From the IMG/VR virus record IMGVR_UViG_3300038306_000120, positions 1 to 20,303 of that record: a DNA stretch of 20,303 nt; one strand, 5' to 3'. Below, in pieces: positions 2,842 to 20,303 of this stretch (position 1 is the stretch's first letter; each line of letters begins with the position of its first letter). Source of the stretch: a virus. Both the position numbers and the translations under genes were made by a program. The notes below the pieces were generated by a model, which made no database searches, was not told the origin of the DNA, and saw nothing but the letters and a program-made list of their open reading frames with translations.

Positions 2842-2858
2842 GTGTTTCCTGCCTGTCT

Positions 2859-5998: not shown

Positions 5999-6006
5999 GT
6001 GTTTTC

Positions 6007-6771: not shown

Positions 6772-6774
6772 AGC

Positions 6775-6996
6775 TTAGGTGCCCGCCTCTTCTAGGCCAA
6801 GGTAGTCGGTGATTTCGGTGGCTCTCTCGTTCAGCTCCTCACGGGCTGCTTCGTATTCCTGGAGGCGCCACTCAAGCTCCTCGTCCTCGGTGTCGATGTC
6901 GAGAATGGGGGCAGGGCTGCGGAAGGCTGCCTCATGGATGATTTTTCTCTCATACTCAGTGAGAGTTGAGAGGGTGGTGTTTGCGATGTCTGACAT
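6775..6996 (-). CDS. Hypothetical acidic coiled protein, 73 aa
   Basis: A very acidic, mostly helical protein. The C-terminal half (DTEDEELEWRLQEYEAAREELNE) looks like a short coiled coil. The start at 6996 is strongly supported by TAGGAG 8 nt upstream. It is the first gene after a 226-nt gap, so it may open a second transcription unit of the early arm. Charge and size resemble small phage inhibitors that mimic DNA or bind host enzymes, but that is only a possibility. Confidence 0.7.
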   Translation of the reverse strand: MSDIANTTLSTLTEYERKIIHEAAFRSPAPILDIDTEDEELEWRLQEYEAAREELNERATEITDYLGLEEAGT

Positions 6997-7222
6997 TTGT
7001 ATCTCCTAGAGATGGTGGAGGGGAGTCTTCCCCTTGAGGTGGTAAGAGTATCAAGGTATTCTGGTAATGTAAAGACATTCTCAAAATACTTTCTCTTGGG
7101 TATGACGGTAAAAGAAAGAGTGGATTAAGGTTGAAATCCCCTCCGCATTCAGTCACACTGGGGGTCGTGGTGGCTTTTGCAGAGGGAGTAAAGGGTGTTT
7201 AGAGGGTTACTCTAGAGGGCTT
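6997..7222 (-). promoter_or_regulatory. Intergenic gap with a weak host-type promoter candidate
   Basis: This is the only sizeable break in the leftward early arm. On the minus strand a -35-like TTTACA lies 17 nt before TACTCT (around 7075-7047), in an AT-rich stretch; the match is weak. A 5-bp stem, GGGGA/TCCCC, lies at 7021-7034. The 14-mer TCTCAAAATACTTT at 7079-7092 recurs in inverted orientation at 11308-11321. No gene is visible. It could hold a promoter or processing site for the genes from 6996 down to RNA polymerase. Confidence 0.35.
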
Positions 7223-7519
7223 TCATCTTTTGTTTGCAAGCATGTCAGCGACGCTGATGAGGTCTTCGGCCACGGCTCGAAGGTGGGATTCACCAGCGTA
7301 TATAAAGTCTCGCCTGGCACCGCCTTCAGCGTCGCCAATGTAGAGCTGGATGGGGATGGTGGAATCATCCACCTCCCTCATGTAAAGGCTGGAGGTTACG
7401 CCAGTGCCTTGGTGTTCGTAGTAGGGAGCCGGGGCGTTGAACAGGTGGGGCATCAGCCGATGCAGCCGTGCTTGTTCATCGCGTGAGGCGTGAGTGAGAG
7501 AGAGTTTTTTGATTGACAT
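7223..7519 (-). CDS. Hypothetical protein, 98 aa, paralogue of the 6007-6294 gene
   Basis: It shares the N-terminal block M-x-IKKL-x-LT-x-A followed by LMPHLF-x-APAP with the 95-residue gene at 6007-6294. The centre differs (EVDDSTIPIQLYIGDAEGG) and it ends in a helix and basic tail (ISVADMLANKR). The true start is ATG 7519, which overlaps the TAA of the 30-residue membrane protein (TAATG). The frame can be extended upstream to 7678, but that part crosses two other genes. The function is unknown. Confidence 0.75.
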   Translation of the reverse strand: MSIKKLSLTHASRDEQARLHRLMPHLFNAPAPYYEHQGTGVTSSLYMREVDDSTIPIQLYIGDAEGGARRDFIYAGESHLRAVAEDLISVADMLANKR

Positions 7520-7611
7520 TACTTGTCCGGGTTGGTAAAGAGTGAGGAGATGAGGCCAAGGGCTAGGATTACCCAGCCGATGGCGCAGAGAATGGAGAGG
7601 ATGGTCTCCAC
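7519..7611 (-). CDS. Tiny membrane protein, 30 aa
   Basis: A GTG start at 7611 overlaps the TAG of the 177-residue gene (TAGTG), and its TAA overlaps the ATG of the next gene (TAATG). Coupling on both sides argues that this very short frame is real. The product is almost entirely one hydrophobic helix (ETILSILCAIGWVILALGLI) with a short polar tail ending in Lys. It has a single membrane span and no recognised family. It is the second miniature membrane protein of this arm. Confidence 0.6.
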   Translation of the reverse strand: METILSILCAIGWVILALGLISSLFTNPDK

Positions 7612-8144
7612 TAGAAGGTGCTGCCGTCGATGGTGAACAGCTCTTCGTCAGAGCGGACAAGAAGCTCGTCCTCGGCAAACTCTTCGGAATCCTGGTAGCG
7701 CATGTCGGCTTCCCAATCGCCCACCAAGGAGTCGCAGCATTGCGCTATGACGTCACGGATTGTGGTAGAATCAGGGGCTGGCCGTGTGCAGAAGTCGAGC
7801 AGTGGTCGGAATGCCGCGCAGTCTCCGCAGTACCCGGTGGGCATGAAGTCCCCGTCGATGAAGAGGCCATTGTTCAGCAGCCATGTCCATGCCCGTATTC
7901 CAGCAAGGTCAAGAATATCATCATCCAATCTGCTGTTGATGGTGGCGTGACTGGGGCTGTAGGGGCTGACGGAGTAGCTCCGCACTGTGCCAAGGAAGTG
8001 TTCGGCTAGTGCATTGAGACTATCAAGCCACTCGCCGCCCCAGTGGTATTCGCGGTCGGTCGAGAGGAAGTTCTGGATGGCGACATCCTTGGCTTCCTGG
8101 GTTAGCTCGGTGAAGGAGTAAAGGTCGGTCGTGATTGTTTTCAT
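7611..8144 (-). CDS. Conserved-type phage hypothetical protein, 177 aa
   Basis: It begins MKTITTDLYSFTELTQEAKD and continues AIQNF, a style I associate with a widespread but uncharacterised phage protein family (often written 'ELSEEAK-x-KA'). The rest is acidic, Trp-rich and Cys-rich (GYCGDCAAF, DFCTRP, QCCDSL), with an acidic C-terminus (DSEEFAEDELLVRSDEEL). No catalytic motif is evident. Its ATG overlaps the upstream TGA and its stop overlaps a downstream GTG. The paired Cys residues could bind metal, but no complete zinc-ribbon spacing is clear. Confidence 0.75.
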   Translation of the reverse strand: MKTITTDLYSFTELTQEAKDVAIQNFLSTDREYHWGGEWLDSLNALAEHFLGTVRSYSVSPYSPSHATINSRLDDDILDLAGIRAWTWLLNNGLFIDGDFMPTGYCGDCAAFRPLLDFCTRPAPDSTTIRDVIAQCCDSLVGDWEADMRYQDSEEFAEDELLVRSDEELFTIDGSTF

Positions 8145-8791
8145 GATTGTTTTTTCTGGAAGAAGGCGTGCTGTTTCCAGCCTTGCTCGGCCAGTCCCGT
8201 GATTTCGGCATGTGCCAGGAAGTCTTGTTGTACCATCTCGATTCCTTCCTGTCCATAGTGCTCCTCAAAGTCGATGTGGAAGGAGGCGTCCTCGATGTAT
8301 TCGCAGAAGTGGATTTCACTCTGCCCCCAGTAGCCATCGAACCACTTCTGGAAGTCCTCGTCGCTGTGATGGTGCTCGGCTAGGAAGTCTTGGATTGTGT
8401 TGCTATACACGAAACTGGTGATACATTCTACCACATCAGCCTCTAGTATTTCCCACTCCAATGTGCTATGCACTTCGTCATCAATGAGCGGGTAATCCTC
8501 CAGCCCTTGGAGTGCCTCGATTACACCATCGGGCAGGTCTTGGCCGACCTCAAAGGTGAACTCGTCGCCGTGGGTGTAGTAGCTCCCTCGATTGGTGATG
8601 GCTGGAGTGCCGAAGCCCATCATTTGGTTCATCCAAATCCAGTTGGCGATGGACACTGTGCACTGCCAGTTTACCCCGAAGTCCAAGGGTGTTACTTCAC
8701 CCCGGCCATCCTCGAAGTAGGAGTTTGCATTGTCTTCCATCAGGATGTGATGGTAGATTAAGTGGTCTGCGATTTCTTGTGTGAGTATCAT
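8141..8791 (-). CDS. Hypothetical acidic protein, 216 aa
   Basis: Unrecognised. It is the longest of the early unknowns, strongly acidic, and rich in Trp, Tyr and His (IANWIWMNQMMGF, HHHSDEDFQKWFDGYWGQ). There is no membrane span or nucleotide-binding motif. It overlaps both neighbours by 4 nt (ATGA), so it is co-translated with the 177-residue protein that follows. High negative charge in an early phage protein can indicate DNA mimicry or enzyme inhibition, but nothing specific supports that here. Confidence 0.75.
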   Translation of the reverse strand: MILTQEIADHLIYHHILMEDNANSYFEDGRGEVTPLDFGVNWQCTVSIANWIWMNQMMGFGTPAITNRGSYYTHGDEFTFEVGQDLPDGVIEALQGLEDYPLIDDEVHSTLEWEILEADVVECITSFVYSNTIQDFLAEHHHSDEDFQKWFDGYWGQSEIHFCEYIEDASFHIDFEEHYGQEGIEMVQQDFLAHAEITGLAEQGWKQHAFFQKKQS

Positions 8792-9033
8792 GATTCTATG
8801 CGGTCGAGCAGTTGCTCTGCGTTGTTTTGGATGAAGTCTAGAAGCTCGGTCTCACTTATGCACTCGGTGCAGGAAGTGACAAAGTCCCGAAGTTCTGGTG
8901 CTGCTGCCAGCAGGTTGGTGTCTTTTTCATCATAGGCCACGGCAACAGTCCTGCCATCCAGCTCCGATATGATGAGTCCTTGGCTGCTGCCAGTGTTGGA
9001 AGCATACCAATAATCGTGTGTTGTTTCACTCAT
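8788..9033 (-). CDS. Hypothetical phage protein with AAAPEL motif, 81 aa
   Basis: A small acidic protein containing TNLLAAAPELRDFV, which matches the 'N-A-x-L-I-A-A-A-P-x-L' motif found in many small phage proteins of unknown function. I start it at ATG 9033, where TTAGGAG lies 7 nt upstream. A TTG two codons earlier is less likely. It overlaps the next gene by 4 nt. Confidence 0.75.
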   Translation of the reverse strand: MSETTHDYWYASNTGSSQGLIISELDGRTVAVAYDEKDTNLLAAAPELRDFVTSCTECISETELLDFIQNNAEQLLDRIES

Positions 9034-9035
9034 TT

Positions 9036-9275
9036 TCAATCTCCTAAGTCCATGGGAAAGAGGGTAGCCAGCAGGAAGCAGCCTTCAAGTTCAACATTAC
9101 GGGCATCCTGCGCCCTCTGAGCATGGCGGTGGCAGTGGTCGTCAAACCGCTGCGGCGCAATGATGGAGTAGCGTAGCATCACACGGGCAGCCGCTCTGCC
9201 GTGGTGGTCGTCGTAGCTTCGGAAGGCGCAGTCTACGCCAGCTTCATCGACACGCTGTACGAGTTTCGGTCTCAC
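9036..9275 (-). CDS. Hypothetical protein, 79 aa
   Basis: An unrecognised basic protein rich in Arg and His (SYDDHHGRAAARVMLRYS, DDHCHRHAQRAQDARN), ending in a hydrophobic stretch (GCFLLATLFPMDLGD). It starts with GTG, overlapping the upstream TGA (GTGA), and stops 2 nt before the next start. It could be a small nucleic-acid-binding protein because of its charge, but there is no motif. Confidence 0.6.
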   Translation of the reverse strand: MRPKLVQRVDEAGVDCAFRSYDDHHGRAAARVMLRYSIIAPQRFDDHCHRHAQRAQDARNVELEGCFLLATLFPMDLGD

Positions 9276-9559
9276 ACTTCCACCCCCAATGTGCCGTCAC
9301 ACACCTTGAACCTACCATCCTTGATGGCCTTCCGAATCGCCACTGGCGACATCTTCAAGAAGAAGCTCAAGTAGGCCATCGTTGTCCTGGAAGTGTGGCG
9401 CAAGTCGCTGCTCATTACCACTTCGCCGCGCCTCTTATCCCAGCGGCAAATCACAGTTGCATGACTTTGGAAAAACTGGCAGGTACCCGCAAAGATGCGG
9501 ATTTGATTGGGAGCAGGGTTGCCACTTGCAGTGGTCATTTGTTCAACGAAGATGTGCAT
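9272..9559 (-). CDS. Hypothetical protein, 95 aa, with a possible DNA-binding C-terminus
   Basis: Unrecognised. From ATG 9559 it reads MHIFVEQMTTASGNPAPNQI, has a basic centre (ICRWDKRRGEVV), and ends in a stretch (LSFFLKMSPVAIRKAIKDGR) with the look of an excisionase-like or small helix-turn-helix segment ('spvairkaIkdGrf'). The frame extends to 9622, but that part overlaps the upstream gene. The ATG is 1 nt past the upstream TAA, and its stop overlaps the next GTG. Confidence 0.65.
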   Translation of the reverse strand: MHIFVEQMTTASGNPAPNQIRIFAGTCQFFQSHATVICRWDKRRGEVVMSSDLRHTSRTTMAYLSFFLKMSPVAIRKAIKDGRFKVCDGTLGVEV

Positions 9560-9560
9560 T

Positions 9561-9926
9561 TTATTTGCAGTGGATTCTGAGGGTTTCAGAGACTTTGATT
9601 GTGCAGTACTTGAGTCCCGCACAAGCAGAAAGTTGCATTACTTCTTGCAATGTTGGGAAGATTTTAATACCCGTCCTGATGGTGCAGAACATTGGGCGCC
9701 CTCTTTGGTCGAGTCCTGCGTAGAAGCCCATGAAGTCCTCAGGGTGCTTGAGCACAAATCCCTCCCTGATGGGCGCTCGGTCGTAGGTGGTTGTCACCAC
9801 GGCGTCGCAGTCTTCACAGTAGGGCTTGTCGCCCGTGTCAGCGAAAGCCCCGGTGTTCATTTGCTGGAAGCCCCTAATCGACAGCTCAGTGCCGCCGCAT
9901 TCGTCACAGCGGTGGAGGCGCTTCAC
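9561..9926 (-). CDS. Zinc-ribbon-like hypothetical protein, 121 aa
   Basis: The N-terminal region has two Cys pairs, CDEC at residues 7-10 and CEDC about 26 residues later, forming a probable zinc ribbon. The remainder is mixed alpha/beta, ending KYCTIKVSETLRIHCK. The start is GTG 9926, overlapping the upstream TGA (GTGA). Zinc ribbons in early phage proteins often contact nucleic acid or transcription machinery. No specific family is recognised. Confidence 0.7.
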   Translation of the reverse strand: MKRLHRCDECGGTELSIRGFQQMNTGAFADTGDKPYCEDCDAVVTTTYDRAPIREGFVLKHPEDFMGFYAGLDQRGRPMFCTIRTGIKIFPTLQEVMQLSACAGLKYCTIKVSETLRIHCK

Positions 9927-10192
9927 TTGGAACCCCCCACCAACGCCTTGGCTGCCGCAACCGTTGCGATGCGGTCAGTAAGCTGGGGCTTCCCCTCATA
10001 AGAGAGCGCCAGTCCCAGCGTCCGCATCACCAAGGTCACTGCGTCGTTACTTTGCGACCATATGGTGCGCTTGGCGCTCAAGGTCTCTTCGGCGTCCGGG
10101 ATGGTCTTCCAGAGCTGGAGACTTTCCCACTTGTTTGTGTTATCTTCCAGCAAAGCGGAAAGGATGGCGATGGTTTGTTTGGTTGGTTTCAT
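9923..10192 (-). CDS. Hypothetical protein, 89 aa
   Basis: An unrecognised helical protein starting MKPTKQTIAILSALLEDNTN. It has no motif or membrane span. I start it at ATG 10192, 1 nt after the upstream TAA. The longer frame to 10258 lies inside the upstream gene. The region before the ATG is A/T-rich with no clear Shine-Dalgarno, as for the two genes upstream. Its stop overlaps the next GTG. Confidence 0.7.
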   Translation of the reverse strand: MKPTKQTIAILSALLEDNTNKWESLQLWKTIPDAEETLSAKRTIWSQSNDAVTLVMRTLGLALSYEGKPQLTDRIATVAAAKALVGGSK

Positions 10193-10193
10193 T

Positions 10194-10424
10194 TTACAAT
10201 CCCTTGCGGTGTTCGATGGTTGCTGCCACTTGGCGCTTGATAATGTCGAGCTTGCCATTCAACATATAGTTGCTGGCAGCGTTGGATTCCAGAATCTCGC
10301 CGGGAATCACGTCGGACAAGTCCGACAAGGACAAGTCCGATGCACGATTCAGCAGCGCTTGGGTGTCTGTGGTGTACTCGGCTTTCAGTAGAGTGCCGAG
10401 GGTGACGTATTGGAGCTGTTTCAT
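10194..10424 (-). CDS. Hypothetical protein, 76 aa
   Basis: An unrecognised helical protein starting MKQLQYVTLGTLLKAEY. Its middle reads ASDLSLSDLSDVIPGEIL, encoded by a DNA stretch (about 10313-10341) with a repeated TCCGACAAG-type element. ATG 10424 is preceded by CAAAAAC with no Shine-Dalgarno, the same leader as the first early gene. The gap to the previous stop is 13 nt. Confidence 0.65.
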   Translation of the reverse strand: MKQLQYVTLGTLLKAEYTTDTQALLNRASDLSLSDLSDVIPGEILESNAASNYMLNGKLDIIKRQVAATIEHRKGL

Positions 10425-10437
10425 GTTTTTGTTTGGG

Positions 10438-10653
10438 TTAGCTGTGGCTGTGGCCATCGAGTTCGATGCCAAGAAACATACCCTTCCAGCCATCGGCAGG
10501 GTAGTAGTAGTTGGACAAGGAATCAAACCGAAGAGTTTCCAGTGGGATTCCTTTACGTTCGCATGTTGCGATTACCGCCTCAGGGACGGTAGAAAGACCT
10601 AGTTCGACCGCTATCGGAGTCGGTGAACCATCGTAGTTGAAGAGCGTTTCCAT
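10438..10653 (-). CDS. First gene of the early arm, hypothetical protein, 71 aa
   Basis: A small acidic protein (METLFNYDGSPTPIAVELGL and onward) ending in a His/Ser tail (DGHSHS). It is the promoter-proximal gene of the leftward arm, with ATG 59 nt downstream of the predicted +1 of the nearer phage promoter. The open frame can be extended to 10731 only by reading through that promoter, so the short start is preferred. ATG 10653 is preceded by CACCAAAAAC without a Shine-Dalgarno. In T7 the first early genes counter host defences; here the function is unknown. Confidence 0.65.
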   Translation of the reverse strand: METLFNYDGSPTPIAVELGLSTVPEAVIATCERKGIPLETLRFDSLSNYYYPADGWKGMFLGIELDGHSHS

Positions 10654-10705
10654 GTTTTTGGTGACCGTTAAACGACGGTAGGCGTTGATTGGTGGGAGCT
10701 GTGCG

Positions 10706-10729
10706 CTTGCTCTATAGAGCCTACTACGC
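10706..10729 (-). promoter_or_regulatory. T7-class phage promoter, copy 1
   Basis: On the minus strand GCGTAGTAGGCTCTATA precedes G at 10712 (+1), followed by AGCAAG. Aligned on CTATAG with the T7 promoter (TAATACGACTCACTATAG), it shares T-14, A-13, A-10, C-7 and the CTATA block. The segment matching copy 2 runs from -17 to +7 with one difference at -15, which is the footprint of a phage RNA polymerase promoter. It aims at the early genes starting at 10653. The core GCTCTATAGAGC is also a perfect palindrome, so a protein-binding site is an alternative. Confidence 0.7.
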
Positions 10730-10773
10730 ACGTTTTGAGACTTGCTCCCAGTCAGTCTTTTACAATCGGCACA

Positions 10774-10797
10774 CTTGCTCTATAGAGCCTACTATGC
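10774..10797 (-). promoter_or_regulatory. T7-class phage promoter, copy 2
   Basis: A second copy 68 bp upstream of copy 1, identical from -14 to +7 and differing at -15 (A instead of G), with +1 at 10780. The sequences outside the -17 to +7 window are not conserved, which argues for a functional site rather than a simple duplication. It has the same orientation, towards the early arm. Confidence 0.7.
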
Positions 10798-10862
10798 GCC
10801 TTGGATTGTACTTTTACTACAGCCGCGTATTCCCTACTGTGGCATTGTCGCTTGCCTAGGTT

Positions 10863-10963
10863 AGCGCCCGCGCAGGCGCTTATAATCGGGATTCTCACTG
10901 CTAGTTAGGAAGCTGCAAATATGGGGATACCCCCATCATTCCAAGTGTCAGAATCTTTGGAAT
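10863..10963. other. Cluster of three perfect hairpins
   Basis: Three stems follow one another. AGCGCC/GGCGCT has a 6-nt loop (10863-10880). ATGGGG/CCCCAT has a 4-nt loop (10921-10936). ATTCCAA/TTGGAAT has a 12-nt loop (10938-10963). None is followed by a T run on either strand, so they do not look like classic terminators. They lie upstream of the two phage promoters and may be processing or protein-binding sites. Confidence 0.4.
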
Positions 10964-11032
10964 CCTCGATTTCATCCTAGTTGTCAAAGTACGGTCTCGG
11001 TTCAACTTGCGACTATGTTGCTGGACTCGTTG

Positions 11033-11048
11033 CCAAGGGTATCCTTGG
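11033..11048. repeat. Perfect hairpin CCAAGG/CCTTGG
   Basis: A 6-bp perfect inverted repeat with a 4-nt GTAT loop, in an otherwise featureless 300-bp stretch. No T run follows. The role is unknown. Confidence 0.4.
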
Positions 11049-11255
11049 TCGCTTTCCGGCTAAGTGGCTTATCTTGCCTGCATCGCTACTTTCTCCATTA
11101 CCCGTGGCTCTATTGTCCCTTGGCCATGGAGCCAACATCAGCAGTGCCCGAAGGGATGCAGAGTGGATGGCTCGCCTTGGCAGGCGGGGCAGGCGAGGGA
11201 CGGGTTCTGGAAAAGAGCGAGTCGATTAGGGCGCTGGGCGCTTTCTCTCGACCCA

Positions 11256-11286
11256 CAGAGAATGACAGATTCTCTGCGTATGTCAA
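11256..11286 (-). promoter_or_regulatory. Perfect -35 box next to an 8-bp inverted repeat
   Basis: On the minus strand a consensus TTGACA (11286-11281) is followed by CAGAGAAT/ATTCTCTG, a perfect 8-bp inverted repeat with a 5-nt loop (11256-11276). A possible -10 at the right distance (CATTCT) is weak. The layout would suit a repressed host-type promoter directed at the early arm, but the poor -10 keeps confidence low. Confidence 0.35.
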
Positions 11287-11329
11287 CACAATACCAAAGA
11301 ATCGGGCAAAGTATTTTGAGATTCAGTCA

Positions 11330-11354
11330 TAAGTCCTTATGCCATAAGCACTTA
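11330..11354. promoter_or_regulatory. 25-bp operator-like palindrome
   Basis: TAAGTCCTTATG and CATAAGCACTTA flank a central C. Eleven of twelve position pairs are complementary and the inner six are perfect. Size and symmetry fit the binding site of a dimeric regulator such as a winged-helix protein; the MarR-like protein at 6294-6674 is one candidate partner. Which promoter it would control is not clear. Confidence 0.45.
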
Positions 11355-11432
11355 CGTTTCTAAAATAGTTTGGAAAGCCATCCATCCAGCACTTTAAGTG
11401 AATCTACTACCTAAGAGCACCGAGTTTCAGAC

Positions 11433-11450
11433 TTGGCACGATACTTGCAG
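11433..11450 (+). promoter_or_regulatory. Sigma-54-like site, copy 1
   Basis: TTGGCACGATACTTGCAG matches the sigma-54 consensus TGGCACG-N4-TTGC(A/T) at every defined position, with GG and GC correctly spaced. It lies in a 45-bp repeat unit that also carries GCAACATCCTAT and recurs at 11478. No gene follows closely on the plus strand. Confidence 0.5.
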
Positions 11451-11477
11451 GGCATCATTGCAACATCCTATCAAATG

Positions 11478-11495
11478 TTGGCACGATAGTTGCAG
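11478..11495 (+). promoter_or_regulatory. Sigma-54-like site, copy 2
   Basis: TTGGCACGATAGTTGCAG, again a full match to TGGCACG-N4-TTGC(A/T), exactly 45 bp after copy 1. The shared element GCAACATCCTAT follows in both units, while the bases between differ. Confidence 0.5.
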
Positions 11496-11660
11496 TAAAC
11501 AAAAGCAACATCCTATGTCCGCATTGCAGCCAAATCGCTCTGGTGACCTGTCGAGGGATATGGTAAGGGTATTGCCTAAAACGCAACAGAAGCGCTTAAA
11601 ACCAGCCTGAGAGCATGCCATTTTGGCAGGGAATGCCGGAATGCGGCCACATTTTCAAAG

Positions 11661-11710
11661 TTGGCACGGTATTTGTAGGGGAATCTTGGCACGGTATTTG
11701 TAGGGACAAG
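11661..11710 (+). repeat. Two 25-bp repeats with variant sigma-54-like sites
   Basis: TTGGCACGGTATTTGTAGGG occurs at 11661 and 11686. The -24 half TGGCACG is kept, but the -12 half is TTGT instead of TTGC, which weakens the promoter match. The 25-bp tandem repetition suggests a protein-binding array related to the two copies at 11433 and 11478. Confidence 0.55.
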
Positions 11711-11781
11711 TCAGGCCAGCGATGACTGGAGGATACCTGCCAAAAAGGCAGACCGCCATGCGGCCATGCACATCCGGCCAG

Positions 11782-11868
11782 ACCGTGCGGAATCGCACAC
11801 CATGGACTGGGCAGACCGTGCGGTATCGCACAGCACCGTGCGGTATCGAACACCGTGCGGTATCGAAC
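11782..11868. repeat. Four copies of ACCGTGCGG(A/T)ATCG(C/A)AC
   Basis: Units begin at 11782, 11815, 11835 and 11852, the last two in direct 17-bp tandem. In the first two, GTGCG and CGCAC form a 5-bp inverted repeat around a 4-bp centre, while the last two have lost one arm base. This looks like an array of dimeric protein-binding sites (iterons or operators). Confidence 0.65.
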
Positions 11869-11873
11869 ACCAT

Positions 11874-11929
11874 AGGAAGTTGCAAAGACCGTAGGAAGTT
11901 GCAAAGACCGTAGGAAGTTGCAAAGACCG
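11874..11929. repeat. Three tandem 19-bp repeats
   Basis: AGGAAGTTGCAAAGACCGT is repeated without change at 11874, 11893 and 11912 (the last lacks the final T). The period is not a multiple of three, so it is not coding. It directly follows the previous array and precedes a short AT-rich stretch (TTGTATATATCC, about 11960-11971), an arrangement seen at iteron-type replication origins. Confidence 0.7.
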
Positions 11930-12070
11930 GGGGGGCATGGGGGGAACGCCGGGCGCGGCCTTGTATATATCCCCACTCGCATTTTTCAGCCATTTTTAGC
12001 GACTCACAACTGAACCACTGCGGTGCTATTCACGCCCTATTGGCTCATGTTTGAACCTTTGTGGCGGGCG

Positions 12071-12258
12071 GAGTCCCACTCAGACTCGGCAAGCCTAGTT
12101 GCATAAGGCAGCCTGGAGGAGTGAGACAGGCCCCTGAATCATCCCTGGAAAACACACAAACCAGGGAACCCCTACTATGCGGGGGATGCAACCAAACGGA
12201 GCATCTGAGACAGGGACGATTAGGTCCGATAGACGGTCAGGGGCGAAGTTCCCCTTTT
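12071..12258. ncRNA. Series of stem-loops, possible structured RNA
   Basis: Several short helices lie in a row: GAGTC/GACTC (12071-12087), TCCCTGG/CCAGGGA with a 12-nt A-rich loop (12142-12167), CCCC/GGGG around TACTATGC (about 12170-12185), GGAC/GTCC (about 12216-12229), and AGGGG/CCCCT followed by TTTT (12239-12258). The last could be a weak plus-strand terminator. No known RNA family is recognised; the density of stems is the only support. Confidence 0.3.
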
Positions 12259-12488
12259 GGATAAGGATAGCATTTGATACTATTTCCTCATAATACCACA
12301 GGGGCTCTAGGTGTAGTATAGGACTACCAAAACCCTTAAACTAGAGTCCTTTTAGAGGGGGTGGGGGTGGTCAAGGTTGCCTTCAGGACTCACCCCTCCT
12401 TTCCTTACTCCCCCCCCATGGGGAGACAAAGGATTCTCCAGGTGTCTTCATTGGTGTCAGGTCACCGCGCATATGGTCTAGCGTACCA

Positions 12489-12520
12489 CAGATTTCGTCA
12501 TTCTCTAGTGGTCAAATCTG
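12489..12520 (-). terminator. Hairpin just after the terminase gene
   Basis: A perfect 7-bp inverted repeat, CAGATTT/AAATCTG, with an 18-nt loop starts 12 nt beyond the stop of the large terminase gene. No T run follows on the minus strand, so termination is only suggested by location. Confidence 0.3.
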
Positions 12521-12531
12521 GGGAATCTGTA

Positions 12532-14196
12532 TCACAGCCATCCGTCCCTCTCAGGGGCTGCTCCAATGGCGTTCTCCAGGAACTTCTCGAGCTCAAGGTC
12601 CAGTGCCTCTCTCTTGGTCTCCTGCATGTTCCTGTCAACGTCTTGACCAACAGCCTCAACCCAGTAGTTGGCAGCCATTGCCAGTGCCTCCAGACGGTCA
12701 TCGTGAGACAGGGCGCCTCGGGCATTGGTGATGCGGGTCATCTGGTGGAAGAGCCTGTATTGGGGAGCGACCTCAGGAGGTAGATGGGAGGTAGAGCTGT
12801 AATCCCTCTCAATCATCTCAGGGGACACGATGATGCGGTGCTGGTTCATCAGCGGCTCCAGGGTATCGATGATTCGCTTCTCCTTCTGGGTGTTGTGCCT
12901 GACCTCAGACAGGGTCACGGGGTAAATCCTCTGGAGGTATGGCGTCAGCAGCTCATTGAACATGCCATCACCAAAGTTGGACTCCGACTGAATCTCCTTC
13001 ACATTGTATGACTTGGCCAGGTTCGCCAGTGCCTCCAGGGTCTCTGAGCTATACCCACCAGCCATACCACCGCACTCGTGCACGTACATGAACCCATTCA
13101 GCATCGACATGATGCAATACCCGGTCTCATCCTTGCCGCGTCCAGCAGGGTCGATGGTCATCACTGTGCCACGGTAGCCAACAAAGGAGCCCTCAACGGC
13201 AAATGGGCGGTGGAAGTAATCCCCACTGAAGCCCACGGTGTTGAGGTTCTTAATCACCTTATCAGGGTCGCTGGAGTGCAGCACCCTCTCAGGGGCCACA
13301 TCCTTGTCGATGTCCATGACAACCAGGTCTCTCAGCTTCAGCGGATAGCGGTCAGCATCCGACAGGCTTGGGTCAAGCATGAACTGCAGCGCAAAGCCCG
13401 AGCGTCCGTATGACAGCTCCCGTTCCGTGAGGTCATCCTCATCGAACCGAAGCGGGTCAACTGGCTTCCCTTCCAGGGACGGGTCATCTGTAATGGCATC
13501 GAGGATATATGGAGCCAAGAAGTCCCCGTAGGACACCACCTTCTCCCTCTTTGGATATCTCCCAGTCCAGACTCTGGAGCCATAGCCTCTAGCGGGGAGG
13601 GCTTTGTAAAGGGACATCTCTGTCTGATAGGTGCCAAGGAACTTAATCATTCCACCTGGCTTCAGAATAGCTTCGAACTCTTTCACCAACTCACCGAGCT
13701 TATCTCGCATGGCCTGGGTCTCAGAGTTGTTGAGGCTTTCAACGTCGTCAGCTACGATTACGTTAGCGCGCGAGCCCGTAAGCTGGCCTGTGATGCCCAC
13801 GGCTTTCACAGATGGAGCGTGAGCTGCTGGTGCGGGACCAACATCAAAGGCAATCTTGGAGTCACGCTGGTCAGCCCGTGCCTTCAGGTGCGCTAGGATG
13901 GGCATCTCATTGATGAGGCGCTGGGTGAAGGTAGAGAAGTCGTCAGAGCGACTCTTGGATGCTGAGACTACCAGGATATTCAGAGTTGGGTCAAGCAGCA
14001 GAAGCCAGCATACGAAGGCTGATGTCTCGTATGACTTACCAACACCCCGGTAGGCCAGGATGACCTGACGACGGGGGCCATGCTGTAGATACTGGGCAAT
14101 GTCATACTGGACAGGGGTTGGTTCAGGGAGTCCAAGGTGGTCCCATACGAGATACAGGAAGTTCCTGAAGTCCCGCAGCTCTGGGGGTGTCTCCAC
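12532..14196 (-). CDS. T7 gp19-like terminase large subunit
   Basis: A 554-residue packaging motor with ATPase and nuclease domains. Walker A is AYRGVGKS with Lys54, and Walker B is VIVADD with Asp150/Asp151. The C-terminal RNase H-like nuclease carries TIDPAGRGKDET (Asp349), QSESNFGDG (Glu405/Asp410) and SHDDRLEA (Asp499/Asp500), matching the metal ligands of phage terminases. It starts with GTG at 14196, overlapping the stop of the small subunit (TAGTG), with GAGGAG a few bases before it. It cuts concatemers and drives DNA into proheads through the portal. It lies on the strand opposite to portal and capsid, unlike T7. Confidence 0.95.
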   Translation of the reverse strand: METPPELRDFRNFLYLVWDHLGLPEPTPVQYDIAQYLQHGPRRQVILAYRGVGKSYETSAFVCWLLLLDPTLNILVVSASKSRSDDFSTFTQRLINEMPILAHLKARADQRDSKIAFDVGPAPAAHAPSVKAVGITGQLTGSRANVIVADDVESLNNSETQAMRDKLGELVKEFEAILKPGGMIKFLGTYQTEMSLYKALPARGYGSRVWTGRYPKREKVVSYGDFLAPYILDAITDDPSLEGKPVDPLRFDEDDLTERELSYGRSGFALQFMLDPSLSDADRYPLKLRDLVVMDIDKDVAPERVLHSSDPDKVIKNLNTVGFSGDYFHRPFAVEGSFVGYRGTVMTIDPAGRGKDETGYCIMSMLNGFMYVHECGGMAGGYSSETLEALANLAKSYNVKEIQSESNFGDGMFNELLTPYLQRIYPVTLSEVRHNTQKEKRIIDTLEPLMNQHRIIVSPEMIERDYSSTSHLPPEVAPQYRLFHQMTRITNARGALSHDDRLEALAMAANYWVEAVGQDVDRNMQETKREALDLELEKFLENAIGAAPERDGWL

Positions 14197-14414
14197 TACG
14201 CCTCCTCGGCAACAAGGAAGGGAAGCGTCTTGGTGAGCTTCACAATAGGCTCACTGTCTTCTACAGCCACAGTGATGCTGTTGTCCTTCAGGAGCTTGAT
14301 GGCAGCTGAGATGTCAGCCGTGGTAGCCTCACCACTTTCAATCCTGGCATTGAGCTCATCGATGACATTAGCATGAAGTTTGGCTAATAGGGGTTTTAAT
14401 AGTTCTGATTCCAT
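14196..14414 (-). CDS. T7 gp18-like terminase small subunit
   Basis: A 72-residue protein directly upstream of and overlapping the large terminase. It is helical, with the segment ELNARIESGEATTADISAAI continuing into KLLKDNSI, a pattern I associate with small terminase subunits of T7-like phages ('ESGEAT-x-x-D-x-x-x-A-x-x-x-L-K-x-N-x-I'). It should recognise the packaging site. I start it at ATG 14414. A longer frame to 14492 would cross the divergent metallophosphoesterase start. No Shine-Dalgarno precedes it. Confidence 0.75.
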   Translation of the reverse strand: MESELLKPLLAKLHANVIDELNARIESGEATTADISAAIKLLKDNSITVAVEDSEPIVKLTKTLPFLVAEEA

Positions 14415-14466
14415 AGTACAATGTGCGCGATGCACAGACGCATCATAACATAAAAGCACAGCACCT
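14415..14466. promoter_or_regulatory. Short divergent promoter region between terminase and structural arm
   Basis: Only 52 bp separate the two diverging genes. On the minus strand TGTTATGAT (14449-14442) resembles an extended -10 for the terminase genes. On the plus strand TACAAT (14417-14422) resembles a -10 with a poor -35. Neither start has a Shine-Dalgarno, and no copy of the phage promoter is present. This is the only intergenic spot that could start the structural transcript within the window. Confidence 0.35.
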
Positions 14467-15471
14467 ATGGCCATAACCCCTAAAAAGTTCAACCAATCAG
14501 TTGAGTCCCTGCGAGAAGAGATGGACCACCTGAAGAAGGAGGTCCGAAAGGCCTATCGGAAGCTCTCCAAGCAGCGCACCACTGAGTCCCTCATCTGCCA
14601 GGCCGTAGAAGACGCGCTAACAGGTGTCAGGCTCCATAAGCCCACAAAGGCTATGAGAATGCGCAAACCAGCCAAGGGCGCCCCAGAGGCCTGGCTGTGC
14701 CTCTCAGACTGGCAGGTTGGCAAGGTCACTGAGACCTACAACTCCAAGATAGCCAAGCGCCGCGTACATCAGCTCACAAAGCAGGCAGCTGAGCTGCTGA
14801 TTAAGGAGCGACCACCTGTACTGCACATCATCCTTCAGGGGGATATGGTTGAAGGCGAGGCCATCTTTGCAGGCCAACCATTTGAGATTGACGACGACCT
14901 CTGGACACAATCAGTCAAGACTGTGCCTAAGCTCATCGCGCACGTAATCACCCAGCTGTCCCCTCTGGTGCCCAAGATTAAGATTGCCTGCGTCCACGGC
15001 AACCACGGACGCTCTGGTTTCAAGGGCGGCGGACATAGCCGCAAGACGAACTGGGACCTGGTCTCCTACAACACCGCCCGCCTCATGTGTGAGGTAGCTG
15101 GCATCGAGAACATGACCTGGGACATCTCTGAGGACTGGTATGTGAAGCAGAAGGTGGCTGGAAATGGCATCCTCTGTGTCCACGGAGACCAGATTGGTGG
15201 CGGAAACCCCTTCAATGTGGGCGCCATCTACCGGAAGGCCATGGGCTGGACCCATAACGTGGATGATTGGAAGTTCCTGAGTGTGGGACACCACCACACC
15301 CATGCCTCTGGAGAGCTCAACCGGGATGTGTATTTCTTCCTGAGTGGGAGCCCAGAGTCAGATAATGACTTCGCCAAGGAAAAGCTGGCCCAGGGTGGCC
15401 TGGCACTGCAGCGAATGTGCTTCTTCAACCGTAAAGGCCTTGTATCAGAGCACTTACTGAGGATGACATAA
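14467..15471 (+). CDS. Calcineurin-like metallophosphoesterase
   Basis: A 334-residue protein with the ordered metal-binding motifs of the family: LSDWQVGK near residue 78 (Asp, with Gln in the place of the usual His), GDMVEG near 125, GNHGR near 178, VHGD near 239, and GHHHTH near 275. The Gln in the first motif is, to my knowledge, shared by other phage members ('LSDLQIGK'). The N-terminus is a charged, probably coiled segment (LREEMDHLKKEVRKAYRKL). Such enzymes act as nucleases or phosphatases, but the substrate is unknown. It heads the structural operon, diverges from terminase and overlaps the next start (TAATG), so a role in DNA processing at packaging is possible. Confidence 0.85.
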   Translation: MAITPKKFNQSVESLREEMDHLKKEVRKAYRKLSKQRTTESLICQAVEDALTGVRLHKPTKAMRMRKPAKGAPEAWLCLSDWQVGKVTETYNSKIAKRRVHQLTKQAAELLIKERPPVLHIILQGDMVEGEAIFAGQPFEIDDDLWTQSVKTVPKLIAHVITQLSPLVPKIKIACVHGNHGRSGFKGGGHSRKTNWDLVSYNTARLMCEVAGIENMTWDISEDWYVKQKVAGNGILCVHGDQIGGGNPFNVGAIYRKAMGWTHNVDDWKFLSVGHHHTHASGELNRDVYFFLSGSPESDNDFAKEKLAQGGLALQRMCFFNRKGLVSEHLLRMT

Positions 15472-15659
15472 TGAATAAAGAAGAGTTCCCCAACGTATCC
15501 AAGGTGTTCATTGAGTCTCTAGAGGAGCTGGTTCCAAAAAAGATGCCAACTCTACTAGATAAGGACAGAGAAATATGGTACAACGTGGGCGTTCAGTCGC
15601 TCATCACCCTCCTACGTGACATTCACGAGATGCAGAACGACAATATCTTATCAGAATAA
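15471..15659 (+). CDS. Hypothetical protein, 62 aa
   Basis: An unrecognised small acidic, helical protein (MNKEEFPNVSKVFIESLEEL and onward). It overlaps both the metallophosphoesterase stop and the next start with TAATG junctions, so it belongs to the structural operon. It has no membrane segment or motif. Confidence 0.7.
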   Translation: MNKEEFPNVSKVFIESLEELVPKKMPTLLDKDREIWYNVGVQSLITLLRDIHEMQNDNILSE

Positions 15660-15841
15660 TGTGTATCGGCGGAAATAAACCCAAGGACCCAGAACCAGCC
15701 CCTCCAGCACCCAAGCCGCCAGAGCGGCTGGCTATTCGCGTGGAGAATCCAGAGGCCGCAGGCACTGGGGAGTTTGGACGCCGTCGTCAGGGTAAGAGTG
15801 CCCTAGTCATTCCTCGTAGGGGACTAAACATCCCAACGTAA
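15659..15841 (+). CDS. Small Pro-rich protein resembling T7 gp7.3
   Basis: A 60-residue protein: MCIGG, then a Pro-rich stretch (EPAPPAPKPPE), then a basic C-terminus GRRRQGKSALVIPRRGLNIPT. T7 gp7.3, encoded just before the portal gene, ends with a similar basic block and a GINI-like terminus (KKSLSVARSSGGGINI). Position and the C-terminal pattern support a gp7.3-type virion or tail assembly protein, although it is shorter than gp7.3. It overlaps the portal start (TAATG). Confidence 0.6.
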   Translation: MCIGGNKPKDPEPAPPAPKPPERLAIRVENPEAAGTGEFGRRRQGKSALVIPRRGLNIPT

Positions 15842-17385
15842 TGGCTGAGCATCAAGAACTAACAGCCCAGGCGTGGTATGAAACCCAGGATGGAAGGCGC
15901 TCCCCGTACCTAGAACGTGCGCGGGAGTGTTCGAAGATTACCATCCCAACGCTCATCACAGCCGCAGGCAGCGTGGCAAGTCAGAAGCTGAAGACACCCT
16001 TCCAGAGTGTTGGCGCGCGCGGGGTGAACAACCTGGGCTCTGCGCTACTGATGAGCCTACTCCCACCCAACGCCCCCTTCTTCAGGCTAGACCTAGATGA
16101 GAAGGCAAAGGCTGAGATGGAAGGAGTTGAGGAGGTACAGACTGAGGTGGCTACCGCCCTGTCTGACATGGAGCGCAAGGTGCATAAGGAGATTGAGGTA
16201 AACAACTTCAGAGTTGGCCTCTTCGAAGCCCTGAAGCACCTGATTGTCTCAGGAAATGTCCTACTCCATGTCCCCAAAGAGGGAAATATGCGTGTCTACC
16301 ATTTGGATAGATACGTCATCACCCGTGACCCTATGGGAAACGTGGAGCGAATCGTCATCAAGGAGGATATCTCACCCCTCCAGGTTCCAGATGGCATCGA
16401 TGTCTCTGGAGTTGACCAAGGTGAGGACGTTGGCCTATACACCTCCATCACAACCATTGACAATAAGACCGTTGAGGTCTATCAAGAGGTTGCTGGAACC
16501 CGTATTGCTGGCTCTGAGGGTTCATACCCAAAGGGGCGCAACCCATTCCTAGCCCTGCGACTTAACCGCGTGGATGGAGAGGATTATGGCCGTGGATACG
16601 TTGAGGAGTACCTCGGGGACCTAGAATCCCTGGAGGGTCTCACCCAATCCATCGTTGAAGGGTCTGCCGCATCAGCAAAGCTCTTGTTCATGGTGGCACC
16701 AAATGGCTCCACCCGCAAGTCCGCGGTTGCCAAGGCTAAGAATGGCGCCATCATTGATGGTGTTGCCACGGAGGTCTCTGTTCTGCAGATTGCGAAACAT
16801 GCAGACTTCAGAGTGGCCTTAGCAACAATCGAGCAGATTCAGGAACGACTGAACTATGCCTTCATGCTCACCGAGGGTGCCATCCGAAAGGCAGAGCGGG
16901 TAACCGCAGAGGAGGTACGGCTTGTAACCCAGGCCATTGAGCGTCAGCTTGGAGGCATCTACTCGGTGCTCTCCCAAGAGTTCCAACTGCCCCTTGTTAA
17001 GATTGTCATGCAGCGCATGGAGTCCGCAGGGCGTCTGCCTAAGATGCCAGCCAACATGGTGCAGCCTATGGTTGTCACCGGGGTAGAGGCACTTGGCCGG
17101 GGCAATGACCTCAACAAACTCGATAGCTTCATCGCAGGCATCGGACAGCTGCTCGGCCCAGAGGCCATTGGGCAGTTCGTCAATGTATCAGACTACCTGG
17201 CGCGAAGAGCGACAGCCCTGGGCATTGACACACGCGGTCTAATCAAGACCGAAGAAGAACTACAGCAGGCGTCGCAAGCGGCGCAACAGGACGAGCTGAT
17301 GGCCCAAGCGGGCCCCCAGGTAATCAAGTCCGCAACGGACGCTGCTGTTAATACACAAACGCAAGCACCTGGAGGTGCACAGTAA
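15841..17385 (+). CDS. T7 gp8-like portal (head-tail connector) protein
   Basis: A 514-residue protein of typical connector length. Features of the family include the N-terminal RSPYLERARECSKITIPTLI, ARGVNNLGSALLMSLLPPNA followed by PFFRLDL, the LLHVPKEGNMRVYHLDRYVI region, and LTEGAIRKAERVTAEEVRLV near 340-360. The C-terminus is Gln/Ala-rich. Twelve copies should form the ring at one head vertex, docking the terminase and later the tail. It overlaps the gp7.3-like gene and ends 1 nt before the scaffold start. Confidence 0.95.
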   Translation: MAEHQELTAQAWYETQDGRRSPYLERARECSKITIPTLITAAGSVASQKLKTPFQSVGARGVNNLGSALLMSLLPPNAPFFRLDLDEKAKAEMEGVEEVQTEVATALSDMERKVHKEIEVNNFRVGLFEALKHLIVSGNVLLHVPKEGNMRVYHLDRYVITRDPMGNVERIVIKEDISPLQVPDGIDVSGVDQGEDVGLYTSITTIDNKTVEVYQEVAGTRIAGSEGSYPKGRNPFLALRLNRVDGEDYGRGYVEEYLGDLESLEGLTQSIVEGSAASAKLLFMVAPNGSTRKSAVAKAKNGAIIDGVATEVSVLQIAKHADFRVALATIEQIQERLNYAFMLTEGAIRKAERVTAEEVRLVTQAIERQLGGIYSVLSQEFQLPLVKIVMQRMESAGRLPKMPANMVQPMVVTGVEALGRGNDLNKLDSFIAGIGQLLGPEAIGQFVNVSDYLARRATALGIDTRGLIKTEEELQQASQAAQQDELMAQAGPQVIKSATDAAVNTQTQAPGGAQ

Positions 17386-17386
17386 T

Positions 17387-18157
17387 ATGGTTGAAGTAGT
17401 AAACGTACCCGGAGCCGAGCCTTCGGCAGTAAATCCAGACCCAGACGCAGCCGCCGCAGCTGATGCAGCCGCCGCGCGCGCCGCTGGTGAGGAGCCAGCC
17501 GAGGGCGCCTTTGTACTCCCTGAGAAGTTTGCCGATGAGGCAGCTCTGCTCAAGGCATACAATGAGCTGGAATCCAAGCAGAGCACCGGAGCACTAAAAA
17601 CTGATGAGAATGGCCTGGCTATTCCTGCCGTTGAGGGTGCTGCCCCAGAGGCCATGCAGGAGTATGTGGACAACTACGCCAAGAATGGCAAGCTCGAAGA
17701 GGCTGACTATGCCGGACTCGAGAAGCTGGGACTACCAAAGAACATGGTGGACAGCTACATCCAAGGCCAGGTTGCCATTGCTGGTCAGGCTGAAGCAGCC
17801 GCCGCCACCTACGAGGGCAACGTAATGACTGAGGCTGGCGGTGCCGAGTCCTATGGAACGCTGACCTCCTGGGCAGCTGATAATCTCAGTGAGACTGAGG
17901 TTGCCGAGTTCAACCGGGCTGTGGAGACTGGTGACATCAACCAGGCAAAGAGCGCCGTGAAGGGCCTTATGGCACAGCACCAACTGAAGGAGGGTAGAGC
18001 CCCCACCCTATTGCAGGGCAAGACCAGTGGTACAGGCACCGCCTCCTATCAATCCCTTGAACAAATGAAAGCTGACATGCGGGACCCCCGCTATCACCAA
18101 GACCCAGCTTTCCGCAAGTCTGTCTCAGACAAACTTGCAAACTCAAATATCATGTAA
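17387..18157 (+). CDS. Capsid assembly scaffolding protein (gp9-like)
   Basis: A 256-residue acidic, Ala-rich, helical protein between portal and capsid, the fixed position of T7 gene 9. The N-terminus is low complexity (DPDAAAAADAAAARAAGEEP). The C-terminus is more ordered (SLEQMKADMRDPRYHQDPAF) and matches the 'D-x-R-Y-x-x-D-P-A-F-R-x-x-V' ending typical of these scaffolds. I start it at ATG 17387, with GGAGGT 10 nt upstream. A GTG at 17375 is less likely. It should guide capsid assembly and then leave the prohead. Confidence 0.9.
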   Translation: MVEVVNVPGAEPSAVNPDPDAAAAADAAAARAAGEEPAEGAFVLPEKFADEAALLKAYNELESKQSTGALKTDENGLAIPAVEGAAPEAMQEYVDNYAKNGKLEEADYAGLEKLGLPKNMVDSYIQGQVAIAGQAEAAAATYEGNVMTEAGGAESYGTLTSWAADNLSETEVAEFNRAVETGDINQAKSAVKGLMAQHQLKEGRAPTLLQGKTSGTGTASYQSLEQMKADMRDPRYHQDPAFRKSVSDKLANSNIM

Positions 18158-18209
18158 GTGATGTTTCTGACCATAGCAATAAGTGTTCGGCCCCTTACGA
18201 GGGATAACT

Positions 18210-18274
18210 TAAACTCCTAAGCTGTGTCAGCCCCCAATGTTTTTCCTTTTTTACACATAAACCTTAGGAGTTTA
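18210..18274 (+). promoter_or_regulatory. 12-bp inverted repeat that could hide the capsid gene ribosome binding site
   Basis: TAAACTCCTAAG (18210-18221) and CTTAGGAGTTTA (18263-18274) are perfect complements separated by 41 nt. The right arm contains AGGAG, the Shine-Dalgarno of the capsid gene (ATG 18280). Pairing in the mRNA would block the ribosome site. The loop is rich in C and T (CCCCC, TTTTT, TTTTTT). A smaller CCCT/AGGG stem with a UACG loop sits just upstream (18192-18203). Confidence 0.6.
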
Positions 18275-18279
18275 TAACT

Positions 18280-19296
18280 ATGGCCGGTAACGTGCTATCA
18301 ACCCCTGGATATGGAGACTCTGCGGACTCCCTATTCCTTCGCCAGTTTGCAGGTGAGGTAATCACTGCATTCGAAACCGCAAACATTATGATGCCTTTGC
18401 ATACGGTTCGCACCATCCCGCAAGGCAAATCTGCTCAGTTCCCGACTATCGGTAACACCACTGCAGACTACCACACTCCGGGTACGGATATCCAAATCGC
18501 TGATGGTCAGAATACGACCTGGGGCGAGTTCGGGCACAATGAGCGCCTGATTACGATTGACGACCTTCTCTTGTCTTCGGCATTTGTCGATAGCCTGGAA
18601 GAGGCAAAAGCCCACTACGAGTACCGCTCTGTGTATAGCCAGAAAATGGGCTATGCCTTGGCCAAGACTGCTGATGAGCAGCTTATGGCTTTGGTGGCAG
18701 AAGGCTCTGAGATGGCTGCTACCGATGGTGGTGCCAACAGTGTAGCCGTACAGGCTATTGGTGGTGGTGACATTGAGATTGCTGGCACTACTGGTGCTGA
18801 CTCCGCTGTTACGGCAGCTTCGTTGGTATCTATGGTCTATGACTGTGCGGTTGCTTTTGACGAAGCTGACGTACCTGCAGAGGACCGCCACATCGTCCTT
18901 CCCCCACAGCTGTATTACAACCTAATCAGCAATGGGTCGGCGGGATGGAGTGTCGCAACTTCGGTGGCTAACTCCGACATTGGTGGCTCAGGCTTCCAGA
19001 CTGGCACTGTCCCAATGCTTGCGGGTTTCCAAATCCACATGTCCAACAACCTGCCTGTAACTGACCGTGCTGCATTGCTTGGTGAAAACAACGACTATGC
19101 TACCACTGGTGGTACGGACAAGCTGAAGGGCATTGCCTTCCAGCGTGGCGCGATTGGTACTGTTAAGTTGCGTGACTTGGCTGTTGAGAGCGAATACCAG
19201 ATTGCCCGCCAGGGTACTCTGATGGTTGCTAAGTATGCCATGGGCCACGGTGTCCTGGTGCCTGCTGCCTGTCTCAAAATCGTAAACCTCTCCTAG
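18280..19296 (+). CDS. Major capsid protein (T7 gp10-like)
   Basis: A 338-residue HK97-fold capsid subunit, close to the T7 gp10A length. The N-terminal region SLFLRQFAGEVITAFETANI, the stretch FPTIGNTTADYHTPGTDI, LITIDDLLLSSAFVDSLEEA followed by KAHYEYRS, and the C-terminal GTLMVAKYAMGHGVLVPAAC are typical of T7-like capsids. ATG 18280 has TTAGGAG about 9 nt upstream, inside the inverted repeat described above. The gene uses more third-position T than its neighbours, perhaps fitting high expression. A strong hairpin follows its stop. Confidence 0.95.
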   Translation: MAGNVLSTPGYGDSADSLFLRQFAGEVITAFETANIMMPLHTVRTIPQGKSAQFPTIGNTTADYHTPGTDIQIADGQNTTWGEFGHNERLITIDDLLLSSAFVDSLEEAKAHYEYRSVYSQKMGYALAKTADEQLMALVAEGSEMAATDGGANSVAVQAIGGGDIEIAGTTGADSAVTAASLVSMVYDCAVAFDEADVPAEDRHIVLPPQLYYNLISNGSAGWSVATSVANSDIGGSGFQTGTVPMLAGFQIHMSNNLPVTDRAALLGENNDYATTGGTDKLKGIAFQRGAIGTVKLRDLAVESEYQIARQGTLMVAKYAMGHGVLVPAACLKIVNLS

Positions 19297-19316
19297 AGAT
19301 AGGTTGAGATATTATT

Positions 19317-19340
19317 GGGGGGCACCTTCGGGTGTCCTCC
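19317..19340 (+). terminator. Strong hairpin after the capsid gene
   Basis: GGGGGGCACC and GGTGTCCTCC form a 10-bp stem (two G-U pairs) closed by a UUCG tetraloop in the very stable C(UUCG)G context, 21 nt after the capsid stop. The downstream sequence (ATTTCCC) is only weakly T-rich. T7 has its main phage-polymerase terminator at this same place, so partial termination after the capsid gene is likely. Confidence 0.7.
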
Positions 19341-19367
19341 ATTTCCCGACGCTGACTACATAAACTA

Positions 19368-20303
19368 ATGGCAATCTTCAATCTAACAGCATCCACCCCA
19401 ATCCCTGTGGTGAATGATAATATCCCAAGCGCCATTGTGGCTGCAGGCAGCGAGACCTTTGAGTACACGGCTCATATTGGGGACCAGACAACCACTGGAG
19501 TTGTTATCCAACCAACGGGGGGCGGGCCCTTCCCATTCGGCATATTCTGCCGTGGGGGTAAGAGTGGAGCCGACTCCCAGCTCACAGATGCTAAGATTCT
19601 AGGGGACTCCACCGCTGCTGGTGCTAGCACCTTTGGGACTCACATTGGCCTAAGTGGATTTGGTATCCTGTACACCATGATTTGCCCAGACTACCGACAG
19701 GGTGCCGGACTTCGTGCACCATCGGTACTGTTCCCAGCTGGACCTGTAGCATCAGGAACTGACAACTTTGGTGTGATTGGAGAGGATGTGGAAGACATCA
19801 TTCAAACATGGTCTGCGCGGTTGGAGCTGTCTAAGGCCAACTCTGAAAAGACATTTGCGATGGGTGCGAGTGCTGGATGTATGCGCCTACTGCTGGCGAT
19901 GGCAGAGGGGCTCCGACCTGACTGCTGCGTCCTACGTGCTCCACTCATCAATCTGAGCGACTGGGAGCCCAACCGGAATGGCCACGACGCCATCCCTGGC
20001 TTTGTTGGCGACGGCAGCACAGCATGGGAGGACCTAACACAGGCCGATAAGAACCGCCTGAGGGCGCGGAGTCCCATGCAGCGCACGGATGAGCTCCCTA
20101 TCATTCCATACCTCATAATCTATGGTGAGGATGACGCCACAGTTCCCCGCGCATGGGTAGATGCGTTTCGGGACAAAATGGAGGCCCGTGGGGCTGAAGT
20201 TCAGGTGGTGGTTGTACCTGGAGGCACCCACGCCATGGCAGCACAGGCTGTGGGCGTCCTGTCCACCGCCGCCGAGAAGAGTCGGGCTGTTATGGCGACA
20301 GTC
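19368..20303 (+). CDS. Alpha/beta-hydrolase-like protein (partial, runs off the right edge)
   Basis: A frame from ATG 19368 stays open for 312 codons to the window end. It has the layout of an esterase/peptidase of the alpha/beta-hydrolase (dienelactone hydrolase or prolyl-oligopeptidase-like) type: PFPFGIFCRGG near 54-64, in place of the HGG oxyanion region; nucleophile elbow GASAG with Ser168; YGEDDATVP with Asp256 in the D-x-x-V-P context; and PGGTH with His288. The Ser-Asp-His order and spacing fit a working triad. The first 30 or so residues (MAIFNLTASTPIPVVNDNIP and on) do not look like a signal peptide and might be a virion anchor. It follows the capsid gene where T7 has tail genes. 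Substrate unknown; a virion-borne esterase acting on the host surface is one possibility. No clear Shine-Dalgarno is present. Confidence 0.75.
   Translation, partial: MAIFNLTASTPIPVVNDNIPSAIVAAGSETFEYTAHIGDQTTTGVVIQPTGGGPFPFGIFCRGGKSGADSQLTDAKILGDSTAAGASTFGTHIGLSGFGILYTMICPDYRQGAGLRAPSVLFPAGPVASGTDNFGVIGEDVEDIIQTWSARLELSKANSEKTFAMGASAGCMRLLLAMAEGLRPDCCVLRAPLINLSDWEPNRNGHDAIPGFVGDGSTAWEDLTQADKNRLRARSPMQRTDELPIIPYLIIYGEDDATVPRAWVDAFRDKMEARGAEVQVVVVPGGTHAMAAQAVGVLSTAAEKSRAVMATV

Follow-up and report, generated by a model that had tools for sequence, protein, structure and literature searches.

In T7, no gene separates gene 10 from gene 11, and the T-phi terminator occupies the place behind the capsid gene. 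Phage phiM1 holds a tRNA and no other gene between its capsid and tail tubular A genes, and both phages differ in this from the clade described below, where the interval holds either one to three small genes or a hydrolase gene. Among podophages, esterase tailspikes (Moo19 gp82, the B2 tailspike and G7C gp63.1) have been suggested to act on acylated O-antigen (PMC11654681), and phage DEV carries an esterase-like domain within its long fibre (PMC10925440). Podophage decoration proteins, such as phiM1 gp43/gp44, N4 gp17 and phi29 gp8.5, are products of accessory virion genes, some of them host-binding (PMC11440229; PMC7602432); the words 'hydrolase' and 'catalytic' are absent from the decoration-protein review, which describes none of these proteins as an enzyme (PMC7602432). 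In the open-access literature, we found no publication on an alpha/beta-hydrolase encoded between the capsid and tail tubular genes of a T7-type phage.

The window analysed here is a whole IMG/VR record of 20,303 b, the right end of which falls inside such a hydrolase gene. Using Pfam and PHROGs, we recovered T7-like genes for a T7-type RNA polymerase, terminase, portal, scaffold and Gp10A-like capsid protein, and the window thus contains the gene set that marks the Autographiviridae (T7-type RNA polymerase together with portal, scaffold, major capsid protein [MCP] and terminase). Its closest named relatives are Roseobacter phages, for example CRP-114, with identities of 61% for the terminase, about 50% for the portal and 42–43% for the capsid protein. 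The one-strand gene order of T7 was absent from both the window and its near-complete relative G013, in which the terminase, RNA polymerase and replication genes lie on the − strand and the structural genes on the + strand. The structural module of the window (14467–20303, +) is accordingly inverted relative to the terminase, RNA polymerase and replication genes (1–14492, −), and this layout is not the product of a chimera, since the 39.8-kb G013 (loci L107–L109) shows the same arrangement. The + strand operon opens with a metallophosphoesterase/exonuclease-like gene (14467–15471; PF00149, phrog_284) and continues with the portal, a T7 gp8-like head-tail connector (15841–17385; PF12236 at 2e-84, phrog_449), the T7 gp9-like scaffold or capsid assembly protein (17375–18157; PF05396, phrog_1052) and the T7 gp10A-like MCP (18280–19296; PF21703 at 3e-52, phrog_267).

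An ATG located 71 nt after the capsid stop codon begins the hydrolase reading frame (19368–20303, +), which encodes 312 aa and runs to the contig end without a stop codon, its 3' end being missing. A complete homologue of 322 aa was recovered on contig L085 (IMGVR_UViG_3300037805_000041; L085:7618–8583). The initial annotation, made from the window alone, had proposed an active hydrolase with Ser168, Asp256 and His288 as its triad, placed directly after the capsid gene, and both the family and the position are upheld by our searches, the preceding gene being the Gp10A-like MCP in Pfam and PHROGs alike. The window protein matched Peptidase_S9 (PF00326; 3.3e-8, 33.7 bits against a cut-off of 22.6), Abhydrolase_3 (PF07859; 6e-6, 26.6 bits against 25) and DLH (PF01738; 8.9e-5, 22.6 bits against 21), and the L085 allele likewise exceeded the curated cut-offs of two of these families. 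A PHROG family annotated as 'esterase' matched at 2.5e-6, and a sequence search of the PDB returned weak hydrolase matches, such as the dienelactone hydrolase 3f67 (E 0.0019). In an alignment with four bacterial S9/alpha-beta hydrolases, the Ser, Asp and His of these enzymes superposed, in order, on Ser168 (19869–19871) of the nucleophile elbow GASAG (19863–19877), Asp256 (20133–20135) in YGEDDATVP and His288 (20229–20231) in PGGTH. The L085 protein, with a GSSAG elbow, retains all three residues at 64.5% overall identity, and the hydrolase reading has therefore withstood comparison with a diverged homologue. A putative oxyanion-hole turn reads RGG (Arg62–Gly64; 19551–19559) at the place of HGG in the bacterial relatives. 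By its profiles and motifs, the frame is a member of the alpha/beta-hydrolase family with a whole triad, and we infer that its product is a catalytically active, putative serine hydrolase using Ser168–Asp256–His288. The single-sequence AlphaFold2 model reached a pLDDT of only 35.5, too low in confidence to inform the fold, and the fold assignment thus rests on the profiles.

The hydrolase resembles bacterial S9, Abhydrolase_3 and DLH enzymes in its catalytic domain, in the GxSxG–Asp–His order and in a similar core length, with identities of up to 28% over about 165 aa (a Pseudoalteromonas protein) and 27% (a Rhodobacteraceae S9 peptidase). Unlike them, it is the product of a phage gene lying between those for capsid and tail, has RGG for HGG and possesses its own N-terminal 45 residues, and the beta-propeller found at the N-terminus of prolyl oligopeptidase (S9) proper is absent, the complete 322-aa allele consisting of the catalytic domain only. 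The RGG variant was also found in the alignment in one S9-family protein of Pseudoalteromonas. Neither allele matched a tail, fibre or decoration-protein family in Pfam or PHROGs; no signal peptide was evident, and the 322 residues of the complete allele include no domain for N-terminal anchoring, fibre formation or trimerisation. Esterase tailspikes and fibres, by comparison, are long proteins with tail-attachment domains, whereas the window-type hydrolase is one domain beside the capsid gene; the G7C enzyme is moreover an SGNH hydrolase, of a fold different from the alpha/beta-hydrolase. A tail or fibre domain that had been envisaged to the right of the window is not there, as the L085 protein ends and is followed by tail tubular protein A.

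To place this gene in context, we read the stretch between MCP and gp11 (tail tubular protein A) in 80 related capsid loci. In most of them gp11 begins about 35–170 nt after the MCP gene, and in most of the more remote T7-like relatives the two are directly adjacent. The clade closest to the window (L002–L008, L092, L100 and L102) carries in this slot between one and three small genes in tandem, each encoding 117–165 aa, whose products form one family (alignment A2). This family had no Pfam match and no convincing PHROG match; its structural model (pLDDT 69) is beta-rich, with weak jelly-roll/cupin-like neighbours and one viral match below 1e-3, none of which identified the protein. A profile search recovered the family in 11 of 50 records, all of the same clade as the window, and every one of the other clade records seen to span the slot (11) carries it; the profile matched neither L085 nor the window, the latter being cut within the slot. 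Conversely, Peptidase_S9 was detected among these 50 records in L085 only. The small slot gene and the hydrolase are thus mutually exclusive in these data, and the hydrolase has taken over the slot from the small protein that the rest of the clade encodes there. An origin of the hydrolase N-terminus from the slot protein was ruled out (hhalign probability 0.1). The view that this is no standard T7-family gene at this place agrees with the survey, in which the 80 capsid loci contained no further hydrolase. Decoration proteins are a possible functional counterpart of the slot protein, and the hydrolase gene, like a decoration-protein gene, adjoins the MCP gene within the structural operon.

The slot and its surroundings vary in other ways as well. 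Two contigs carry three diverged tandem copies of the slot protein between MCP and gp11 (L004 1753–2838; L005 3423–4511), and these proteins mostly track their neighbours, with copies 1 and 2 being 98% and copy 3 81% identical between the two contigs. In two contigs from different samples, gp11 is a 989-aa protein of four tandem gp11-like units (L002 11421–14390; L003 5099–8068), while relatives have one unit of about 205 aa. In the distant relative L052, a 686-aa Mtd_N/tailspike-like protein (8696–10756) lies between the capsid and tail tubular A genes; this suggests that virion proteins exposed at the surface can be accommodated in the slot, but a single case is of little weight as proof.

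The L085 contig matches the window from position 11734 onward. From 12000 to about 19300 of the window, the two show few differences in 7 kb (nearly 100% nucleotide identity), and from the start of the hydrolase gene the identity falls to about 65–76%. At the protein level, the portal and scaffold are 100% identical and the MCP 99.7%, with the hydrolase standing far apart at the value given above. Six nucleotides after the hydrolase stop codon, L085 encodes MAVNNPFTTTQLEAVNTILSGIGEL, the start of tail tubular protein A, so that the T7 order resumes right after the hydrolase. A codon comparison revealed differences at 63% of the synonymous sites against 24% of the non-synonymous ones (dN/dS about 0.2), and with synonymous sites near saturation the two alleles must have split long ago and have remained under purifying selection. 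Residues 246–292, which include the acid and the histidine, are the most alike (77%), and residues 116–135 (19713–19772) are the most variable stretch in the comparison by segment (25% identity), possibly representing a substrate-specificity loop. As so divergent a hydrolase stands beside nearly invariant portal, scaffold and capsid genes, the allele pair points to placement by recombination into near-identical genomes; on its 3' side, the comparison extends to the window end before gp11 and, in L085, to 25 codons into gp11. The hydrolase gene has probably been swapped between phages. Swapping of surface-facing genes fits selection on host range and is no proof of a surface location. The sole comparable exchanged gene that we saw in the clade is gp12 (tail nozzle), which is 48–56% identical in phages that match at 93–98% in the adjacent head genes: L100 and L102 share gp11 at 97% and gp12 at 48%, and L003 and L092 share MCP at 97% and gp12 at 56%.

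Between MCP and the hydrolase gene lies an 11-bp hairpin with a UUCG loop (19316–19341, +, starting TTGGGGGG; z = -3.1), which occurred at the same place in 8 of 8 clade loci tested. In the hairpin alignment, 77 of 77 pair cells were standard versus 48–62% in slid controls, with one pair altered on both sides; the element is without a long U-tract. It is probably a transcription terminator or attenuator, and the succession of MCP, terminator-like hairpin at the T-phi place and gp11 is what the clade shares with the gene 10–gene 11 region of T7. The hydrolase gene has no clear Shine-Dalgarno sequence, versus AGGAG for the capsid gene. Together, the hairpin and the lack of a clear Shine-Dalgarno suggest that fewer copies of the hydrolase than of the capsid protein are made, a hint weakened by the other slot genes of the clade, which are likewise without a clear Shine-Dalgarno.

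Our preferred reading, to which we give somewhat less than an even chance, is that of a late, exchangeable serine hydrolase that replaced the slot protein and acts, on the virion or outside the cell, on acylated polymers of the host surface. The enzyme (an esterase/deacylase or S9/DLH-like hydrolase) would be expressed late, read with the structural genes behind the post-capsid hairpin; it would ride on the virion, at the head surface or neck, or work extracellularly, and would aid adsorption by removing acyl or ester groups from the host's capsule, its O-antigen or an extracellular polymer, with different alleles matching different hosts. The hydrolase may in this manner help the phage to deal with the host surface. 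Indirect support comes from the predicted beta-rich nature of the protein that it replaces and from the exchange of alleles between otherwise identical phages. The missing anchor, fibre and trimerisation domains and the undetectable similarity to the slot protein weigh against it, as does the decoration-protein review, in which no enzyme is reported; another protein can be the receptor binder, as a long repetitive, fibre-like open frame ends the structural module of one clade genome. The main rival is a serious one, and we consider it quite possible if not favoured: the gene would be a late accessory 'moron' whose product stays outside the virion and acts within the dying cell or once released, for example by altering receptors against superinfection or re-adsorption to debris, or by aiding metabolism or lysis. 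A compact single-domain enzyme with no virion-type domain and no evident signal peptide, related most closely, as far as detectable, to ordinary bacterial hydrolases, and encoded behind a terminator-like hairpin with no clear Shine-Dalgarno, is what such a gene would look like. However, the hydrolase displaces a clade-wide gene family in a structural operon of otherwise tight MCP–X–gp11 order, whereas moron insertion more often spares the resident gene.

A narrower form of the virion reading, which we regard as unlikely, is that the enzyme took over from a head or neck accessory protein as a virion-carried, exchangeable 'armed decoration', by which otherwise identical phages would differ in the acylated polymer that they process. 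The replacement in the slot would also suit a hydrolase fold that no longer catalyses and has been retained for a structural or binding purpose, such as decoration or the binding of carbohydrate, given that lectin-like use of enzyme folds occurs and that the oxyanion turn has Arg for the usual His; yet the triad and motifs are retained in two alleles near saturation at synonymous sites, and RGG is also present in a bacterial S9-family protein, which makes this improbable. That the frame is a chance one, or a chimera of assembly at a contig end, might be prompted by both contigs terminating nearby and by the lack of the gene in other clade members, but two independent contigs bear different alleles at the same place, with profile matches far beyond chance and purifying selection, and the idea is in practice refuted. 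Phage-borne hydrolases are already known; what is new here, and well supported, is the exchange of alleles together with the slot replacement. Phage tails are known to carry enzymes that open the host surface, and the preferred reading, if true, would mean that the head–neck slot can be armed too; a pair of all but identical phages with different alleles of a single enzyme would then serve as a small natural experiment. Should the hydrolase prove absent from the virion, it would nonetheless be an uncommon accessory enzyme, encoded in an interval that most T7-like phages leave without genes.

Searches with tblastn against phages (E 0.01 and 10) and plasmids returned no full-length relative of the hydrolase. 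Peptide-pattern scans of viral and genome contigs for either allele or both, in addition to a scan for further alleles with the 30-nt 3' end of the MCP gene, recovered L085 only, and the rarity of the gene is a lower-bound statement, as short exact-peptide scans miss distant relatives. An enzyme-like 'short fibre' of Alteromonas phages R8W and H4-4 was rejected as a counterpart, its gene preceding the portal and thus lying outside the slot.

Away from the hydrolase, the window contains four sigma-54-like (−24/−12) sites, TGGCACG-N4-TTGCA, on the + strand (11434–11449, 11479–11494, 11662–11677 and 11687–11702). Two are perfect and two have one mismatch, all within 270 nt of non-coding DNA, against a chance expectation of 0.17, and they face the antisense strand of the terminase gene and the structural operon. 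The near-identical contig L094 carries the two perfect sites, and none of the other loci compared does. Upstream of the leftward genes, CTTGCTCTATAGAGCCTACTAYGC occurs in two copies (90%; 10706–10734 and 10774–10802), which are candidate promoters of the phage RNA polymerase.
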